Below, piece by piece: positions 37,098 through 54,290 of a DNA stretch of 64,000 bases. Where the stretch lies: contig NZ_QKLW01000005.1 in assembly GCF_003208215.1 (NCBI RefSeq), positions 186,001 through 250,000 on the forward strand. Direction: 5' to 3'. The first letter of the stretch is position 1. The number at the start of each line of letters is the position of its first letter. A program made the translations under genes and the position numbers. The notes beneath the pieces were generated by a model. That model did not search any database. It was not told the DNA's origin and worked only from the letters and a program-made list of their open reading frames with translations. The DNA comes from Marinomonas alcarazii. Its GTDB lineage: Bacteria > Pseudomonadota > Gammaproteobacteria > Pseudomonadales > Marinomonadaceae.

Positions 37098-37459
37098 GGG
37101 GATGACTTGGTTTCGACGCCGGTTACAAAACCTGAGGTGCATGTCGAGAGTGATACGTGATCTCGTAAATCCCCCGTATCAATTTAATAGTCGCAAACGA
37201 CGAAAACTACGCTTTAGCAGCCTAAACCGCTGCTAGTGTGCTGCCCTCAGGTTGCTTGTAGCCAGAGATTCTGCAGTATCATAAATTACAAGATGCTAAC
37301 TGATGCCCCGCCTAGGGATAAGGTTATAAGATTAAGTAGGCTCGCCATTAACACCCTGTCCTTCGGGCGGTTCGTGGTCAAATAATAGAAGTGACTAAGC
37401 ATGTAGATCCAATGGCAGAGGACTGGCGGACGGGGGTTCGAATCCCCCCATCTCCACCA
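37098..37459 (+). ncRNA. ssrA: transfer-messenger RNA
   Basis: A 362-nt tmRNA. The 5' GGGGATG pairs with CATCTCC near the 3' end to form the acceptor stem, followed by discriminator A and encoded CCA (37457-37459). The T-arm 'GGGGGTTCGAATCCCCC' is clear. The tag frame begins at GCA 37193 and encodes ANDENYALAA, then TAA (37223-37225), a typical gammaproteobacterial proteolysis tag. The 3' end serves as an integration site for the island that follows. Confidence 0.97.
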
Positions 37460-47944: not shown

Positions 47945-48316
47945 ATGCCTTTATATCTCGAAATTATTGTTTGTGTGTCGCTGCTGATTGGCGGTGCGTT
48001 TTTGTTGGTTGGCTCTTACGGTTTAGTACGATTGCCTGACATCTATATGCGCTTACACAGCCCGACCAAAGCATCGACTCTGGGGATCACCGGTGTCTTG
48101 CTGGCGTCTATGGTTTTTCAAAGCCATTTAAAAGGTTTTCTTTCGATTCAGGAGTTGTTGATCACTTTATTTCTATTGATCACAGCGCCTGTTGCCGCCA
48201 ATATGATCGCAAAGACGGCGTTACATCAACGCACAAAGCCGTTGGATAAAACAGAGAACCAAGCGCTTATGGAAACCGTTCGAGACAGAGAAGCACCTAA
48301 GCCTCCTCAAGATTAG
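47945..48316 (+). CDS. mrpG: Mrp antiporter subunit G
   Basis: The 123-residue subunit has three membrane segments and 'GLVRLPDIYMRLHSPTKASTLG', the MnhG signature. It is the last gene of the operon. Its 3' end overlaps the convergent Amt-GGDEF-EAL gene by 20 bases, and no separate terminator is visible in between. Confidence 0.93.
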   Translation: MPLYLEIIVCVSLLIGGAFLLVGSYGLVRLPDIYMRLHSPTKASTLGITGVLLASMVFQSHLKGFLSIQELLITLFLLITAPVAANMIAKTALHQRTKPLDKTENQALMETVRDREAPKPPQD

Positions 48317-51300
48317 GCGATAGTAGTTTAGCCACTTCTGTGTTTTTCATCGGACGATGGAAGTAATAACCTTGGAACACCTCACAACCTAACGATTTAA
48401 GTGCCTCTAGTTGCGGAGCGGTTTCTACGCCCTCCGCAACGATAGACAACTCTAAGCTGCGTGCTAAATACACAATGGTTTCGCAGATTTTTGCGTCTTC
48501 CATTTGTTTATCACACTCTTCTACAAAGGATTGGTCTATTTTCAAAATGTCTAAAGGCAAACGTTTTAAGTAGCTTAAAGACGAGTAGCCAGTACCAAAG
48601 TCGTCGATCGAAATTTTGATATCCAACCCCTTCAACTCAAACATCACATCAATACAACGTTGAATGTCTTGCAGTAAAACCCCTTCCGTAATCTCAAGTT
48701 CCAAGTACCCACCTTCTATGCCATAAAAGGCGAGTTTCTTCGATATAAAAGACACTAAAGAATCTGACACTAAATGCCGCCCAGATACGTTCACAGATAC
48801 GGGCACTATACTTAAGCCTTTATCTCGCCATTCTTTTAACTGCAATAACGCTTTATCGATAACCCACTCATCCATTTTTATAATCAGGCTGGATTCCTCC
48901 GCAAGCGGAATGAAGTCAGCAGGCGAAATAAGCCCTTTGACCGGATGATTCCAACGGATCAATGCCTCTAAACCCAGAATATTGTCTTTTTCTAGCAACA
49001 CTTTCGGCTGATAAACCAAGAAAAACTCGTCGGAAGAAAGCCCATCGTTCACTTCCTTTTCAAAGCTGAACCTTTTCGTCACCGCGTTGGTCATGTTTGA
49101 GGTGAAAACTTGTGCGTTGTCCCTGCCTTTTTCTTTCGCCCAGTACATAGCAATATCCGCTTGCTGTATTAACTTGTCAGCATCTATTGCTTGGTCGCCA
49201 GAATGGGCAATACCTATGCTGGTTGGAATAGTAAAGTGCTGGTTATTCAACTGAATAGGAAGGCGCATAATCTCTAAGATTTTTTGCGCATGTGCCATCA
49301 TTCTGTCTTCGGTCACATTCTCCGTCACCATCAGAACAAACTCGTCGCCGCCCCAACGAGCAATAACATCACTAGAATCGGAAACAGACTCTAAACGCCT
49401 TGCGACTTCACACAAGAGTTCATCTCCTGCTTTGTGGCCCAAGGTGTCATTAATCACTTTGAAGTTATCGAGATCTAGGAACAGCAAGCCTACGGAGCTT
49501 TTCTGGCGACCAGCAATCAACAAGGCACTCACCAAAGAGTCCATCAAATAGGTTCGGTTGTACAAGCCCGTCAATGGGTCGCTGTACGCCAGAAATTTAA
49601 GGCGCTGCTGCAGTTTTGCATGACGAGTCATGTCTCGGATGTGCAGCGTGTATTCACTCCCCTGTGAAGAGTCAGCATTGGCTTTGGTAATCGCAATTTC
49701 AGCAGGAAAATCATGATTTGGACCGCGCTGTAAACGAAACGGGTTGCGGCGATTCAAAATCAGCCCGCTTGAAGAAGAAAAGCCGGAATTCAAGCTATCG
49801 AAAATTTTAATCCTATCTTCTTCCATTACGAATAAGCCGATGAAGCTCTTGCCTTGCACTTGCGTTTTTAAACAACCAAATGTCCGCTCGGCAGCAGGGT
49901 TAAACTCGATCACAGAACCAAAACGGTTAATGGTCACGATACAATCCATAGAGGAGTTTAGTATCGCGGACTTACGCATTTCACTTTCTTGAAAACGCAT
50001 CAATGCATCATCACGCTGCGCAATTTCCGTATTCACACGGTCGAGAACTTGGTTATATTTGTGCGCAATTTGACCGACTTCAGTGAAGGGTTCTTCAGGA
50101 ACGGGCTTGGAAAAATCGGCGTTATTTTGTTGGTACTGCATAGAGGTGAGTAAATCAAATAACTCAGTGGTTGCTCTGTGCTCAGCCACATTTAAGCCTT
50201 GTTCTTCTTGTTCTCTACTGGCTCGTAATGGCATAAAATAATTCAAGAGGCGCATGCCAATATAGCCAACGACAAAACAATAGATGCCAATCGATACAAT
50301 CCCTAACGTCTGCACCCACAGCTGTTCGACAAAGCTCAAACCATTATCGATTCTGTCCGTTTGACCAAACAGCGCGACACTTAACGTTCCCCAAATACCC
50401 GCAAACAGGTGAGCAGGAACCACATCCAGCGCATCGTCTAGACGCCAGCGAGTCATTAACAAACTGCCGTAATAGACAACCACACCTGATACCGCGCCAA
50501 TAACCACAGAAGCGCCAGGCGAAACCACATGACAAGATGCGGTAATACTAACTAAGCCTGCAATGGTGCCGTTTAAAACAAAGCCGACTTCGATGTACCC
50601 ATCTTTGAAATAGTTAATCGCAGCGGCAATGAGTCCACCCCAAGCAGCGGAAATGAATGTATTCAAAATGATCATAGGCACGTCATTGTTTAACGCCAGC
50701 GTACTGCCACCATTAAAGCCAATCCAGCCAAACCAAATAAGCAATGTGCCTAACGCGGATAAAGGAAGGTTGTTACCGGGAGGAAGACGAATGCCTTCTT
50801 CAAAGCGACCCAATCTAGGGCCAATAATAATGATGGCAGCTAATGCGACCCAGCCACCCACAGAGTGCACCACAGTCGAACCGGCAAAATCAATAAAGCC
50901 AAGCGCTTCAAGCCAACCAAGTGGACCTTCAGAAGGATATATTCCAGACCAAGCCCAATGCCCCACGATTGGGTAAATAAAAGCACTCAATATAACGGTG
51001 ATCGCGAGGTAACCAATGAATGTCATGCGTTCAGCGACCGCACCAGAGGTTAAAGTTGCAGCCGTTCCACAAAACATCATTTGAAAAATAAAGAAGCTAA
51101 TTTCCCATGGCGTGTGCTCCTCACCGAAAAAGAAGTCACTATGGCCAAATATGCCTGCGAAAGAATCGCCAAACATAATGCCAAAACCAAAAAGCCAAAA
51201 TAGCGTCGTCGATATAATAAAGTCTGAGATGTTTTTTGCGGCAACATTGATGCTGTTCTTACTTCGAATACGACCACTTTCCAAGCATAAAAAACCCGCT

Positions 51301-51353
51301 TGCATCATAAAGACCAATGCAGAGGCAACTAATAACCAAGAGAATTCTGCCAT
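48297..51353 (-). CDS. ammonium transporter fused to PAS, GGDEF and EAL domains
   Basis: This protein of about 1018 residues combines an Amt/Rh channel with a cyclic-di-GMP module. The first ~390 residues are an Amt with 11 hydrophobic segments and both pore-histidine motifs ('STVVHSVGGW' and 'PAHLFAGIWG'). A PAS domain (about 460-585) follows. Then comes a diguanylate cyclase with intact 'RWGGDEF' (about 668-674) but no RxxD inhibitory site. A phosphodiesterase domain has intact 'LEAL', 'DDFGTGYSSLSYL' and 'AEGVET' motifs. It could couple ammonium availability to c-di-GMP. The usual glnK/amtB pairing is absent. I prefer ATG 51353; a TTG at 51383 is less likely. Confidence 0.9.
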   Translation of the reverse strand: MAEFSWLLVASALVFMMQAGFLCLESGRIRSKNSINVAAKNISDFIISTTLFWLFGFGIMFGDSFAGIFGHSDFFFGEEHTPWEISFFIFQMMFCGTAATLTSGAVAERMTFIGYLAITVILSAFIYPIVGHWAWSGIYPSEGPLGWLEALGFIDFAGSTVVHSVGGWVALAAIIIIGPRLGRFEEGIRLPPGNNLPLSALGTLLIWFGWIGFNGGSTLALNNDVPMIILNTFISAAWGGLIAAAINYFKDGYIEVGFVLNGTIAGLVSITASCHVVSPGASVVIGAVSGVVVYYGSLLMTRWRLDDALDVVPAHLFAGIWGTLSVALFGQTDRIDNGLSFVEQLWVQTLGIVSIGIYCFVVGYIGMRLLNYFMPLRASREQEEQGLNVAEHRATTELFDLLTSMQYQQNNADFSKPVPEEPFTEVGQIAHKYNQVLDRVNTEIAQRDDALMRFQESEMRKSAILNSSMDCIVTINRFGSVIEFNPAAERTFGCLKTQVQGKSFIGLFVMEEDRIKIFDSLNSGFSSSSGLILNRRNPFRLQRGPNHDFPAEIAITKANADSSQGSEYTLHIRDMTRHAKLQQRLKFLAYSDPLTGLYNRTYLMDSLVSALLIAGRQKSSVGLLFLDLDNFKVINDTLGHKAGDELLCEVARRLESVSDSSDVIARWGGDEFVLMVTENVTEDRMMAHAQKILEIMRLPIQLNNQHFTIPTSIGIAHSGDQAIDADKLIQQADIAMYWAKEKGRDNAQVFTSNMTNAVTKRFSFEKEVNDGLSSDEFFLVYQPKVLLEKDNILGLEALIRWNHPVKGLISPADFIPLAEESSLIIKMDEWVIDKALLQLKEWRDKGLSIVPVSVNVSGRHLVSDSLVSFISKKLAFYGIEGGYLELEITEGVLLQDIQRCIDVMFELKGLDIKISIDDFGTGYSSLSYLKRLPLDILKIDQSFVEECDKQMEDAKICETIVYLARSLELSIVAEGVETAPQLEALKSLGCEVFQGYYFHRPMKNTEVAKLLSPNLEEA

Positions 51354-51536
51354 ACACATCCCAGATAGTATAAATTGCACCAAAAAGAATCACGCCAAAT
51401 AAAAGAGGGCGAAAAATAAGAACGAAAAGAGAGCAAAGTATAAAAACAATAGGCCACCACAGTGGCGCCTCTTAAGCTATTCAATAGTTAAGCCAACTCT
51501 TGAATAATCACTATTAGTGCAGGTCAAAAAAACAAA

Positions 51537-51567
51537 AAAGCCACTTAATAATGCATTAAGTGGCTTT
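51537..51567 (-). terminator. rho-independent terminator of the tubulin-like gene
   Basis: AAAGCCACTTAAT (51537-51549) pairs with ATTAAGTGGCTTT (51555-51567). On the minus strand it is followed by T-rich sequence (the A-runs at about 51526-51538). Confidence 0.85.
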
Positions 51568-51605: not shown

Positions 51606-53633
51606 CTAACCATTCAAAGTTAAGACATTTGTCTTACTGATACGGTGACGATAAATTTCTCGCAAGTACTTAATCGCATTTTTAACATTATTAATATCCA
51701 AGCGAATATCATTAATGGAAACAAAGCGCTGACTGTTATCAATCAGTTCACGATATTTTTTCTCGTACATTGGTTTAATAGCATACCAATTCGTATCTAA
51801 GATTTTTGCTGGGTTTTCGTAGGTCGCAAAGTACTTATCCACCAAGCTTTCATCAAACTCATCTTCTTGAATCATGCTAATAATCGCTTTATCAATTTCG
51901 TCCGTGTAGCGGTAATCATCACGAGCAAAACAGCGCTTCATATACGCAACCATTAAGGTCAGGAAGTCATCACTTAGACATGGGCTTTTAGCGATCAGAG
52001 TCGTCAAAGACAAGTTCGCAGACGCGCCAATAACCAAAGCGTAACGCTTCAATGTGGTATTTGGGCACAAGCGATTAAGGTGCATTTTCAGACGATTCAA
52101 TGCGGTGAAAGACAATTTGTAGTCTCGTGGCAATGAAATAATAGAAACAATCGATGAACAGTTTTTAAAGAAATGCAGGTGATTCAGTTCACTCGCATCG
52201 TAGCCGCTCTTACGGTAGTTTTTAATCGCTTCACGATATCTATCTGATTCAACTGGCAACACACTCACGCCTTCAATAGCGGAGGTGTCATTGTTAAAGT
52301 GAGGCAATTCTATTGAACGACAAAACAAGTCATCAATATCAACCGTATCTTGATGCTTGCCTTCACCTACAACACTTTCCGCATAAGCAACAGCAACGGG
52401 GCCAGCCAAACTCATAAACAAGTCATTGGCATCTAAGCGAATGGTTTCTGCGATATCAATACCGGCACGACGGAAATAGTCTTCGTCATAATCTGTTGTC
52501 ACAGCTTGAGCGGTCAGAATGTTAAAAATCTGCTGAGAAATATACTGATTAGCGTATTTCTCCATGGTATTCACATCAATATTGTCGGCATCGCCACCGT
52601 CTTCTTCTTCGGCATATCGCATGATGTCATTGGAAATCAGCATCATAGAGTTCCATGGGCGAATGCGCTCCATCACATCAGCAGGAACCTCATCGTCTTC
52701 ACGCTCTTCGTTATAGGAAAAATTCCACTCTTCCGATATGTATTTCGTTAACAAACGCCCAGCGTTGATATGCAAGGCCTCAGAAATTTCTACATTCTTT
52801 CCAGAAATATTCGGAAGAATACAAATGCCTGAAGTAAAGATAGGTTCAAACACAAAGCTATGACGTTTATCGACCGCTTGACTTTGATCAGAACGATAGT
52901 CAAATGTTTTACTCAAGTATGAAAATTGCTGTGCTAGACCAAATTCAGACGCCATTCCTGAGCCTGTTCCACCACCCGCACTGAAAATATAAAAATAAAG
53001 GCGCGATTGGTTTGCTTTGATGCCACATGAATCAACCAAATAAGAATGCATGTTTTTCCAGTTCTCGTTTCGGAACGTCGTTGCATCTTTATTAAGGATA
53101 ATTTTCGCAAGGTATTGCCCCAAAATAGGCGCGTTACCAGCACCACCAGCGTGAACTTCAGACAAGTCCATTATTTGTAGTTTTTTATACTCATCTAGGA
53201 ACTTGGTTCTGCCTTCTTGATTTGAGAAACGAATACGTCCCTCAATATCTTTATCCAAATCCCCCAACAAAACGATAGGCTCTATTAAGAAAACAGGTTT
53301 AAAACCGTCTTTCCCTTCAATAGGTAAATGCTTACGAATCCAACGCATAGGTCGAAATTCGCGTTCGCTTTCTAATATTTCTTGGTTTTCTACTTCGCGC
53401 ATATAACTTGCTCTGGCATCGTAGACAAGCGATGCGACATCTAATGCAATATTAGAACCGCAACGCCCTAAACCAATTAAACAAACGGATGGAAATACCT
53501 GGTCAATAGCGACTTCTTCATCACCTAATTTGGGATGAATCCGGCTTCGAACAACATCCAAATTTTCTAAGATTTGCTCTAAATTTGTCTCAGTAAAATA
53601 AAGATGTTCTATTGGGAGATTTTCTTGGCTCAT
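51606..53633 (-). CDS. stand-alone tubulin/FtsZ-superfamily GTPase-like protein
   Basis: This 675-residue protein carries the nucleotide-binding loops of tubulin/FtsZ in the right order. T1-like 'GLGRCGSN' is at 54-61, T3-like 'AGGAGNAP' at 162-169 (FtsZ has GAGGNPE), and the diagnostic T4 'SAGGGTGSG' at 218-226. A T6-like 'SNDIMRY' is at 334-340, a long H7-like helix at 358-377, and a T7-like 'IRLDANDL' at 398-405 where FtsZ has NLDFADV. It is about twice the size of FtsZ, with an N-terminal extension, insertions and a C-terminal half (about 430-675) that I cannot assign. No membrane helix is seen. It is monocistronic, and clearly not the cell-division ftsZ. It may belong to the poorly described 'tubulin-like' bacterial families. 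Function unknown. Confidence 0.8.
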   Translation of the reverse strand: MSQENLPIEHLYFTETNLEQILENLDVVRSRIHPKLGDEEVAIDQVFPSVCLIGLGRCGSNIALDVASLVYDARASYMREVENQEILESEREFRPMRWIRKHLPIEGKDGFKPVFLIEPIVLLGDLDKDIEGRIRFSNQEGRTKFLDEYKKLQIMDLSEVHAGGAGNAPILGQYLAKIILNKDATTFRNENWKNMHSYLVDSCGIKANQSRLYFYIFSAGGGTGSGMASEFGLAQQFSYLSKTFDYRSDQSQAVDKRHSFVFEPIFTSGICILPNISGKNVEISEALHINAGRLLTKYISEEWNFSYNEEREDDEVPADVMERIRPWNSMMLISNDIMRYAEEEDGGDADNIDVNTMEKYANQYISQQIFNILTAQAVTTDYDEDYFRRAGIDIAETIRLDANDLFMSLAGPVAVAYAESVVGEGKHQDTVDIDDLFCRSIELPHFNNDTSAIEGVSVLPVESDRYREAIKNYRKSGYDASELNHLHFFKNCSSIVSIISLPRDYKLSFTALNRLKMHLNRLCPNTTLKRYALVIGASANLSLTTLIAKSPCLSDDFLTLMVAYMKRCFARDDYRYTDEIDKAIISMIQEDEFDESLVDKYFATYENPAKILDTNWYAIKPMYEKKYRELIDNSQRFVSINDIRLDINNVKNAIKYLREIYRHRISKTNVLTLNG

Positions 53634-53996
53634 GCGGCATCCTTTTTGAAGTAAATCACTTACAACAGATAATCATTCACGTTATCAACGAAACGACATG
53701 ATACGAAGCAAACCGTTTATCTGTTTAATGCACTGTTTATTTTTATCGTCATTTTTTTGGACAATGTGCAAACAATATCATCCTTACATAGCAATGACAC
53801 TAATATGGTGCGTTTAATCATAAAATAAATAATTAAAATAATTTTTTGTTTGAACTCTAATTTTCACTACTAATAAAGTCAAACATCGCCAAATCCCCTA
53901 CCAAAAAATACTCAATATATCGTGACAAAACCTCTCGCTTGGTTGTTTTTTGTACTATGATATAAGGTAACTTGAACAACTTTTAAGGTGACTATC
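53634..53996. promoter_or_regulatory. 363-bp AT-rich divergent region, tubulin-like gene / small gene
   Basis: The region is strongly AT-rich and should contain both divergent promoters. Near 53951-53966 a TGTACTATGATATAAGG stretch could supply a -10 for the small gene. No other gene or RNA structure is visible. Confidence 0.4.
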
Positions 53997-54290
53997 GTGT
54001 CTATCTCATCAGTATCAAACAACCGTTTGTACATGCCTAGCTTTTTAGCCCAAGCAGAAACAGACGTGCGACCTGATTTGAGCCGCCAACAGGACCCTGT
54101 TCAACTTTCAGACAAAGCAAAACAGATGTTGTCTTCTCAATTACAAGCAAATGATTCTGACACTAAGGGTGAAGAGGCTGGTAAAGAGTCGGTCCAAATT
54201 TCTTCAAGTGTTGGCCGACTCTCTAGAATATCGGGATTACAAAGAGAGGAAGTTGCAGAGCTGTATCGCTCTATCGATAAATTAACCTAA
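53997..54290 (+). CDS. small soluble protein of unknown function
   Basis: A protein of about 97 residues from GTG 53997, with AAGGTGA five bases upstream (a GTG three codons earlier overlaps that site). It is polar and probably partly disordered: an N-terminal Ser/Asn-rich stretch, then 'DPVQLSDKAKQMLSSQLQ', a Gly/Glu-rich linker and a C-terminal helix 'GLQREEVAELYRSIDKL'. The layout recalls small anti-sigma or adaptor proteins, but there is no family match I trust. It is divergent from the tubulin-like gene and converges on ppx. Confidence 0.55.
   Translation: MSISSVSNNRLYMPSFLAQAETDVRPDLSRQQDPVQLSDKAKQMLSSQLQANDSDTKGEEAGKESVQISSSVGRLSRISGLQREEVAELYRSIDKLT

Follow-up and report, generated by a model that had tools for sequence, protein, structure and literature searches.

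What is the 675-residue protein encoded at positions 51606–53633 of a 64,000-nucleotide stretch of Marinomonas alcarazii DNA (contig NZ_QKLW01000005.1; this whole analysed stretch is called the window here), and what might it do? Its gene, which carries the loops of a tubulin/FtsZ-type GTPase, had been described in a first-pass annotation as encoding a stand-alone enzyme that was new or barely described. The open reading frame was borne out; it is read from the minus strand (53633→51606), a point left unstated there, and the plus-strand reading contains stop codons throughout. The protein is very probably a member of FtsZl2, which Makarova and Koonin named in 2010 as a proteobacterial family within the FtsZ/tubulin superfamily, with PFL_1302 of Pseudomonas fluorescens Pf-5 as its type (PMC2875224). 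The earlier view of it as barely described is supported and that of it as new is not, because it fits a family that has had a name since 2010 and a Marinomonas sp. protein, together with a P. fluorescens member, is already named in the published alignment and legend (Figure 1 of PMC2875224, as far as available).

In the 2010 description, the family has loops T1, T4, T6 and T7, with inserts separating T1 from T4, and a C-terminal α/β region some 300 residues long; no gene context is recorded, and the authors predicted that FtsZl2 forms filaments (PMC2875224). The M. alcarazii protein, compared with this description rather than with the PFL_1302 sequence itself, showed no difference from it. Both have the signature GGGTG(S/T)G and the T1, T4, T6 and T7 loops, whose residues are identical in 45 of 45 sequences here; both have T1–T4 inserts (a distance of 164–171 residues in the present family, against 87–92 in FtsZ), a C-terminal α/β region without relatives (about 270 residues after T7 here), coexistence with a conventional FtsZ and no conserved gene context. 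The genome of M. alcarazii contains one match to Tubulin (PF00091) above the cut-off, a 423-residue open frame located elsewhere than the FtsZl2 gene and taken to be FtsZ. No functional study of FtsZl2 was found in the literature searched, which covers little subscription literature, and within the same scope the terms ‘PFL_1302’ and ‘FtsZ-like 2’ occur in PMC2875224 only.

The protein has five ordered loops, all at exactly the residues listed in the first-pass annotation: T1, GLGRCGSN (residues 54–61, positions 53451–53474); T3, AGGAGNAP (residues 162–169, 53127–53150); the T4 signature loop, SAGGGTGSG (residues 218–226, 52956–52982); the T6 region, SNDIMRY (residues 334–340, 52614–52634); and T7, IRLDANDL (residues 398–405, 52419–52442), with the acidic pair D401/D404. 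The T6 region, like H7, was located by position and not by structure. The likeness of T7 to that of FtsZ claimed earlier holds for both acidic residues of the D-x-x-D pair, whereas position 399 is arginine in place of the asparagine of FtsZ, so that the motif reads RxDxxD and not NxDxxD.

Conservation was assessed in an alignment of the window protein with 44 relatives that are 58–90% identical to it (33 of 103 loci, to which 12 further sequences were added; one intact member, L106, which the search pattern missed, and a decayed copy were omitted). Of the positions in the loops and close to them, 25 were checked, and every one is identical in 45 of 45 sequences, among them G54, G56, G59, N61, G163, G164, G166, N167, G220–G226, N335, D336, D401 and D404. 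The family consensus is GxGRCGSN for T1, GGAGNAP for T3 (residue 165 is not always alanine), GGGTGSG for T4, SND for T6 and RxDxND for T7. An ordered T1–T3–T4 pattern matched 38 of 45 family members, 28 of 30 FtsZ-type proteins, none of 848 other open reading frames and none of 20,000 shuffled sequences; written after both families had been seen, this pattern is descriptive and not an independent test. Most of the core and of the C-terminus is conserved, with dips at residues 76–100, 301–325 and 576–600. The gene is under strong purifying selection: the ratio of non-synonymous to synonymous substitution rates (dN/dS) was obtained for four of the five close relatives compared, at 0.0090, 0.0178, 0.0163 and 0.0090, the identical first and last values probably representing the same gene and dS being near saturation. 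The neighbouring Ppx gene gave a similar single value of 0.0155.

The extra length of the protein was earlier ascribed to a single domain of about 250 residues; it is instead distributed over two inserts of about 75–80 residues within the GTPase core and over both ends, where the N-terminal tail is variable and the C-terminus longer. The second insert lies between T4 and T7, which are 176–182 residues apart in the family and 100–102 in FtsZ, as measured, like the T1–T4 spacing, on all 45 family rows and on those of the 30 FtsZ rows with loops fitting the search pattern. The N-terminal tail ranges from 10 to 109 residues (median 48) among the 45 sequences, whose start codons are not proven; Marinomonas tails are mostly short, at 10–12 residues, and in one protein the tail has 33 residues. 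After the tail follows a family segment, YFTE..L..IL.NLD..R (residues 12–34, 53532–53600). The C-terminal region (residues 406–675, 51609–52418) is predicted to be mixed α/β and then helical and has no match to a known family. An acidic-hydrophobic stretch, DDFD[VLI]IVK, occurs in 4 of 45 N-terminal tails (L056, L057, L068 and L071), and a looser pattern of the kind, chosen by eye, in 9 of 45; this tail motif may be a binding peptide.

Outside the loops, similarity to tubulin and FtsZ is weak and falls under Pfam cut-offs. In a search with the single protein, Tubulin (PF00091) scored 12.4 bits against a cut-off of 33 (21.7 for the best of six re-scanned relatives) and Tubulin_2 (PF13809), a family that the first-pass annotation had put forward for comparison, 11.8 bits against a cut-off of 27. 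These two were the most-matched models when 33 members were scanned at an E-value of 0.1, Tubulin being matched by 27 (best 2.7e-4) and Tubulin_2 by 26 (best 4.7e-3). The third, DUF6562, was matched by 12 of the 33 (best 4.1e-4) and treated as chance, as was the single match, in one member, of an NCBIfam scan of 45 members (E 0.009). The protein had no significant match in PHROGs, and a sequence profile search of the PDB returned nothing except matches to ribosomal protein L23 at E 0.44 or worse.

Profile–profile comparison with hhalign gave an E-value of 1.4e-4 (probability 53%) against α/β-tubulin, represented by two sequences, over 29 columns around T4 alone; 0.0017 (15.5%) against six Tubulin_2 proteins (6 of 7 loci), with T1, T3 and T4 co-linear across 157 columns; and 0.012 (3.5%, 46 columns) against 30 FtsZs (30 of 88 PF00091 matches). 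Taken one at a time, the six Tubulin_2 proteins gave E-values of 0.0014 to 0.22. Reversed-sequence controls scored 0.073, 0.09 and 0.0068 for tubulin, Tubulin_2 and FtsZ, respectively; of the three comparisons, only that with FtsZ was no better than its control. Equally shallow profiles of known branches gave 4.6e-6 (86.5%) for tubulin–FtsZ, 4.7e-4 (32%) for tubulin–Tubulin_2 and 7e-4 (26%) for FtsZ–Tubulin_2, which places FtsZl2 near, or somewhat beyond, the distance between superfamily branches already known. A profile Smith–Waterman test with 12 of the 30 FtsZs and 25 unrelated controls was not decisive, because 2 of the 25 controls scored as high as tubulins. In a mixed MAFFT alignment of FtsZl2 and FtsZ, T1, T3 and T4 were in register and T7 was not.

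Structure prediction, proposed earlier as a check, was run and yielded models of low confidence. The full-length AlphaFold model (pLDDT 45.7, pTM 0.35) is too poor for its structural matches to carry meaning, and that of residues 376–675 reached a pLDDT of 68.3 and a pTM of 0.49, with a best PDB E-value of 0.12 in Foldseek; neither model had a PDB match at E 0.001. The predicted order of elements after T7 is strand, helix, strand, helix, strand, helix, strand, which could hold the C-terminal domain of FtsZ and tubulin plus an added helix. The earlier assignment to the tubulin/FtsZ superfamily of GTPases is supported as probable, and a GTP-binding tubulin fold can be proposed with high confidence.

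Among the known branches, α/β-tubulin gave the best hhalign score and shares the GGGTGSGM loop and, by eye, the T1 GxCGxx and T3 GAGN motifs and the S10 strand; it differs in the weakness of the overall similarity, in the inserts of the 675-residue protein and in the lack of a second tubulin-like neighbour gene. FtsZ shares the loop order and the T7 DxxD pair, whereas the present protein lacks FtsZ loop spacing and, as first annotated, stands apart from division and partition genes, its neighbours encoding Ppx, Rho and an AmtB–GGDEF–EAL protein. The plasmid and phage tubulins TubZ and PhuZ resemble FtsZl2 at the level of the superfamily only. They are plasmid- or phage-borne, whereas tblastn found no FtsZl2 match in 72,556 plasmid or 50,697 phage records and none was confirmed in viral contigs, on which ground a plasmid or phage tubulin was rejected. 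With Tubulin_2, also published as FtsZl1, the protein has the co-linear T1, T3 and T4 in common; it differs in scoring under the PF13809 cut-off, in having T6–T7 and in lacking an operon. The available portions of PMC2875224 describe FtsZl1 as having a coiled coil and as lying in operons with vWA, kinase and GTPase genes. Tubulin_2 proteins are termed ‘FtsZ-like’ in PMC9871819, the available portions of which do not use the word FtsZl. No Tubulin_2 match was found in the M. alcarazii genome at E 0.001.

FtsZl2 is patchily distributed. It was found in 29 of 48 genomes of the genus, that of M. alcarazii included (29 of 47 of good quality); of the 19 negatives, one (G733) has an assembly break near the expected site, as judged from contig positions and locus lengths, and another (G1118) is 77% complete. 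Genome draws from the order, class and phylum, which overlap and include the M. alcarazii genome, contained it in 26 of 391, 4 of 370 and 12 of 397 genomes, the last count including a broken copy. The gene is also carried, at loci L110–L116, by genomes of a second family of the order (f21), probably Pseudomonas. A contig-collection scan gave 118 stretches with relatives, and the best 80 listed are all gammaproteobacterial by title, the scan favouring close relatives and the genome draws having been kept within the phylum; genera among the matches listed are Marinomonas, Rheinheimera, Alkalimonas, Marinobacter, Thioalkalivibrio, Cellvibrio, Aeromonas, Alteromonas, Agarivorans, Vibrio, Shewanella, Psychromonas and others. 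The broken copy, in genome G1057, consists of three pieces with stops (L134–L136), and G1074, of the same genus, keeps a long open frame; the decayed copy probably reflects a recent loss.

No neighbour is common across the family, and an operon partner was rejected. The 80 named loci compared fall under 34 labels, each a genus or a metagenome-assembled genome (MAG), and no neighbour family within nine genes occurred under more than 7 of these. The most widespread neighbours belong to one group with one common locus (Rheinheimera, Alkalimonas, Arsukibacterium and related MAGs), with which Aestuariibacter has three or four downstream genes in common and Thalassomonas one; Vibrio and one Alteromonadaceae MAG have two neighbours in common, and Agarivorans and Aliagarivorans the whole region. 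By eye the recurring neighbours look like housekeeping genes, which would fit insertion at a common site or inheritance better than a functional partner. The role of FtsZl2 is unlikely to become apparent from its gene context. Alishewanella (L058) and Shewanella (L079) have four common neighbours, by eye pmbA, yjgA, tldD and a nitrilase-like gene; the genes lying in between differ, and the neighbourhood may be a repeated insertion site.

The copies in Marinomonas lie mostly near Ppx and often also near the Amt–GGDEF–EAL gene, on the other side of which the FtsZl2 gene is found in G001, G005, G007 and G569. In G1119 and G020, the gap between Ppx and Amt–GGDEF–EAL is 224 and 711 bases, respectively, and FtsZl2 occurs nowhere in the genome, leaving an empty site. 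A protein tree built from 45 sequences, in which some long branches were flagged, places Paraglaciecola marina within Marinomonas (support 100/98 and 100/99) and clusters Marinobacter, Thioalkalivibrio and Halomonadaceae (100/100), contrary to taxonomy; with weak support (85/63), Cellvibrio lies near Alkalimonas, Arsukibacterium and Alishewanella. These groupings against taxonomy suggest that the gene has spread laterally. The Marinomonas-type FtsZl2 of Paraglaciecola marina (L009) is 87% identical to the window protein and has a different gene setting; the case may be a recent transfer or possibly assembly contamination.

By analogy with the established biochemistry of tubulin and FtsZ, from which GTP binding, hydrolysis and polymerisation are inferred, FtsZl2 would bind GTP through T1–T4 and T6, and its subunits would stack head to tail, the D401/D404 pair of one subunit completing the GTPase site of the next. 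The resulting dynamic filament would act alongside FtsZ and outside division, as a scaffold or a generator of force, and cargo or membrane would attach at the variable N-terminal tail. This account as a whole is the favoured one and is held with moderate confidence; that FtsZl2 forms filaments is, on its own, a reasonably probable proposition, and that it is not a division filament is considerably safer. More tentatively, FtsZl2 may be a self-sufficient, laterally transferred cytoskeleton, with its own GTP-driven filaments, an attachment tail at the N-terminus (C-terminal in FtsZ) and no dedicated partner gene. Occurring in scattered, mostly aquatic Gammaproteobacteria, it would then be a deep branch of the tubulin superfamily, closer to tubulin than to FtsZ if judged by the weak scores.

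With two core inserts and a long C-terminus that could block stacking, arginine in place of asparagine in T7 and no sign of a dedicated partner gene, a tubulin-fold GTPase might instead act as a monomer or small oligomer, as a nucleotide-dependent switch or a regulator, for example of FtsZ. The invariance of the T7 acidic pair, which consists of subunit-interface residues in known members, and the conservation across most of the core and C-terminus argue against this, and it is regarded as rather unlikely. A further alternative is another nucleotide-binding, Rossmann-type protein whose glycine-rich loops arose by convergence, as the sub-threshold Pfam and weak whole-length scores, the reversed control that outscored the real FtsZ comparison and the lack of a structural match would allow; set against these are the expected residues in the order T1–T3–T4–T6–T7, identical throughout the alignment, the ordered pattern that no unrelated open reading frame matched, albeit one written after the fact, and the co-linear Tubulin_2 alignment, with a better score than its reversed control, which together make convergence highly improbable.

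The patchy presence, the empty site in a close relative, the tree suggesting transfer and the one decayed copy also fit a single-gene stress or anti-phage module, such as one that senses phage tubulin or a disturbance of division. PADLOC gave no match, on which ground a defence gene was rejected, and the lack of relatives in phage and plasmid records and of confirmed ones in viral contigs, together with the housekeeping appearance of the neighbours, speaks against such a role. The slow sequence change of FtsZl2 is unlike that of most defence genes, and a defence function appears improbable.

At its locus, the FtsZl2 gene starts with ATG, 6 bases after a ribosome-binding-like AAGGA sequence, and is followed, 39 bases past the stop codon, by an intrinsic terminator-like hairpin on the minus strand (51537–51567) with 14 pairs, a 3-base loop and a T-rich tail. 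This hairpin has the longest stem of the terminator-like sites in the scanned stretch (7 observed against 2.1 expected), and its position suggests that the gene is transcribed alone; the gene is chromosomal and probably monocistronic. No regulatory site common to the family was found in 103 upstream regions, among which the same strain or close kin of it recur many times: a loose LexA pattern gave 26 scattered matches, and the patterns for sigma-54, CRP, FNR, ArcA, Fur, PhoB, TyrR, sigma-28 and sigma-32, like one additional pattern, gave 0 to 3 each. Among named relatives, the protein of M. pontica is the nearest, at 97% identity.

Upstream lie a divergent 100-residue open reading frame (53988–54290, plus strand) with a GTG start, which recurs in Marinomonas and has no Pfam match, then the gene of the Ppx/GppA phosphatase, then that of Rho. 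Downstream, a 1028-residue protein (48297–51383, minus strand) consists of an ammonium transporter domain fused to PAS, GGDEF and EAL domains and so joins an ammonium transporter to c-di-GMP signalling; near-full-length counterparts, 2 of them in two pieces, occur in 40 of the 48 Marinomonas genomes. Elsewhere in the window, a tmRNA gene (37098–37459, plus strand) encodes the tag ANDENYALAA.

Few branches of the tubulin superfamily are known, and those characterised have revealed distinct cell processes. FtsZl2 is a branch under strong constraint, present in culturable marine bacteria, whose function has seemingly not been probed since the family received its name in 2010. A clean genetic comparison is possible between close relatives that have FtsZl2 at one locus and others that lack it there.
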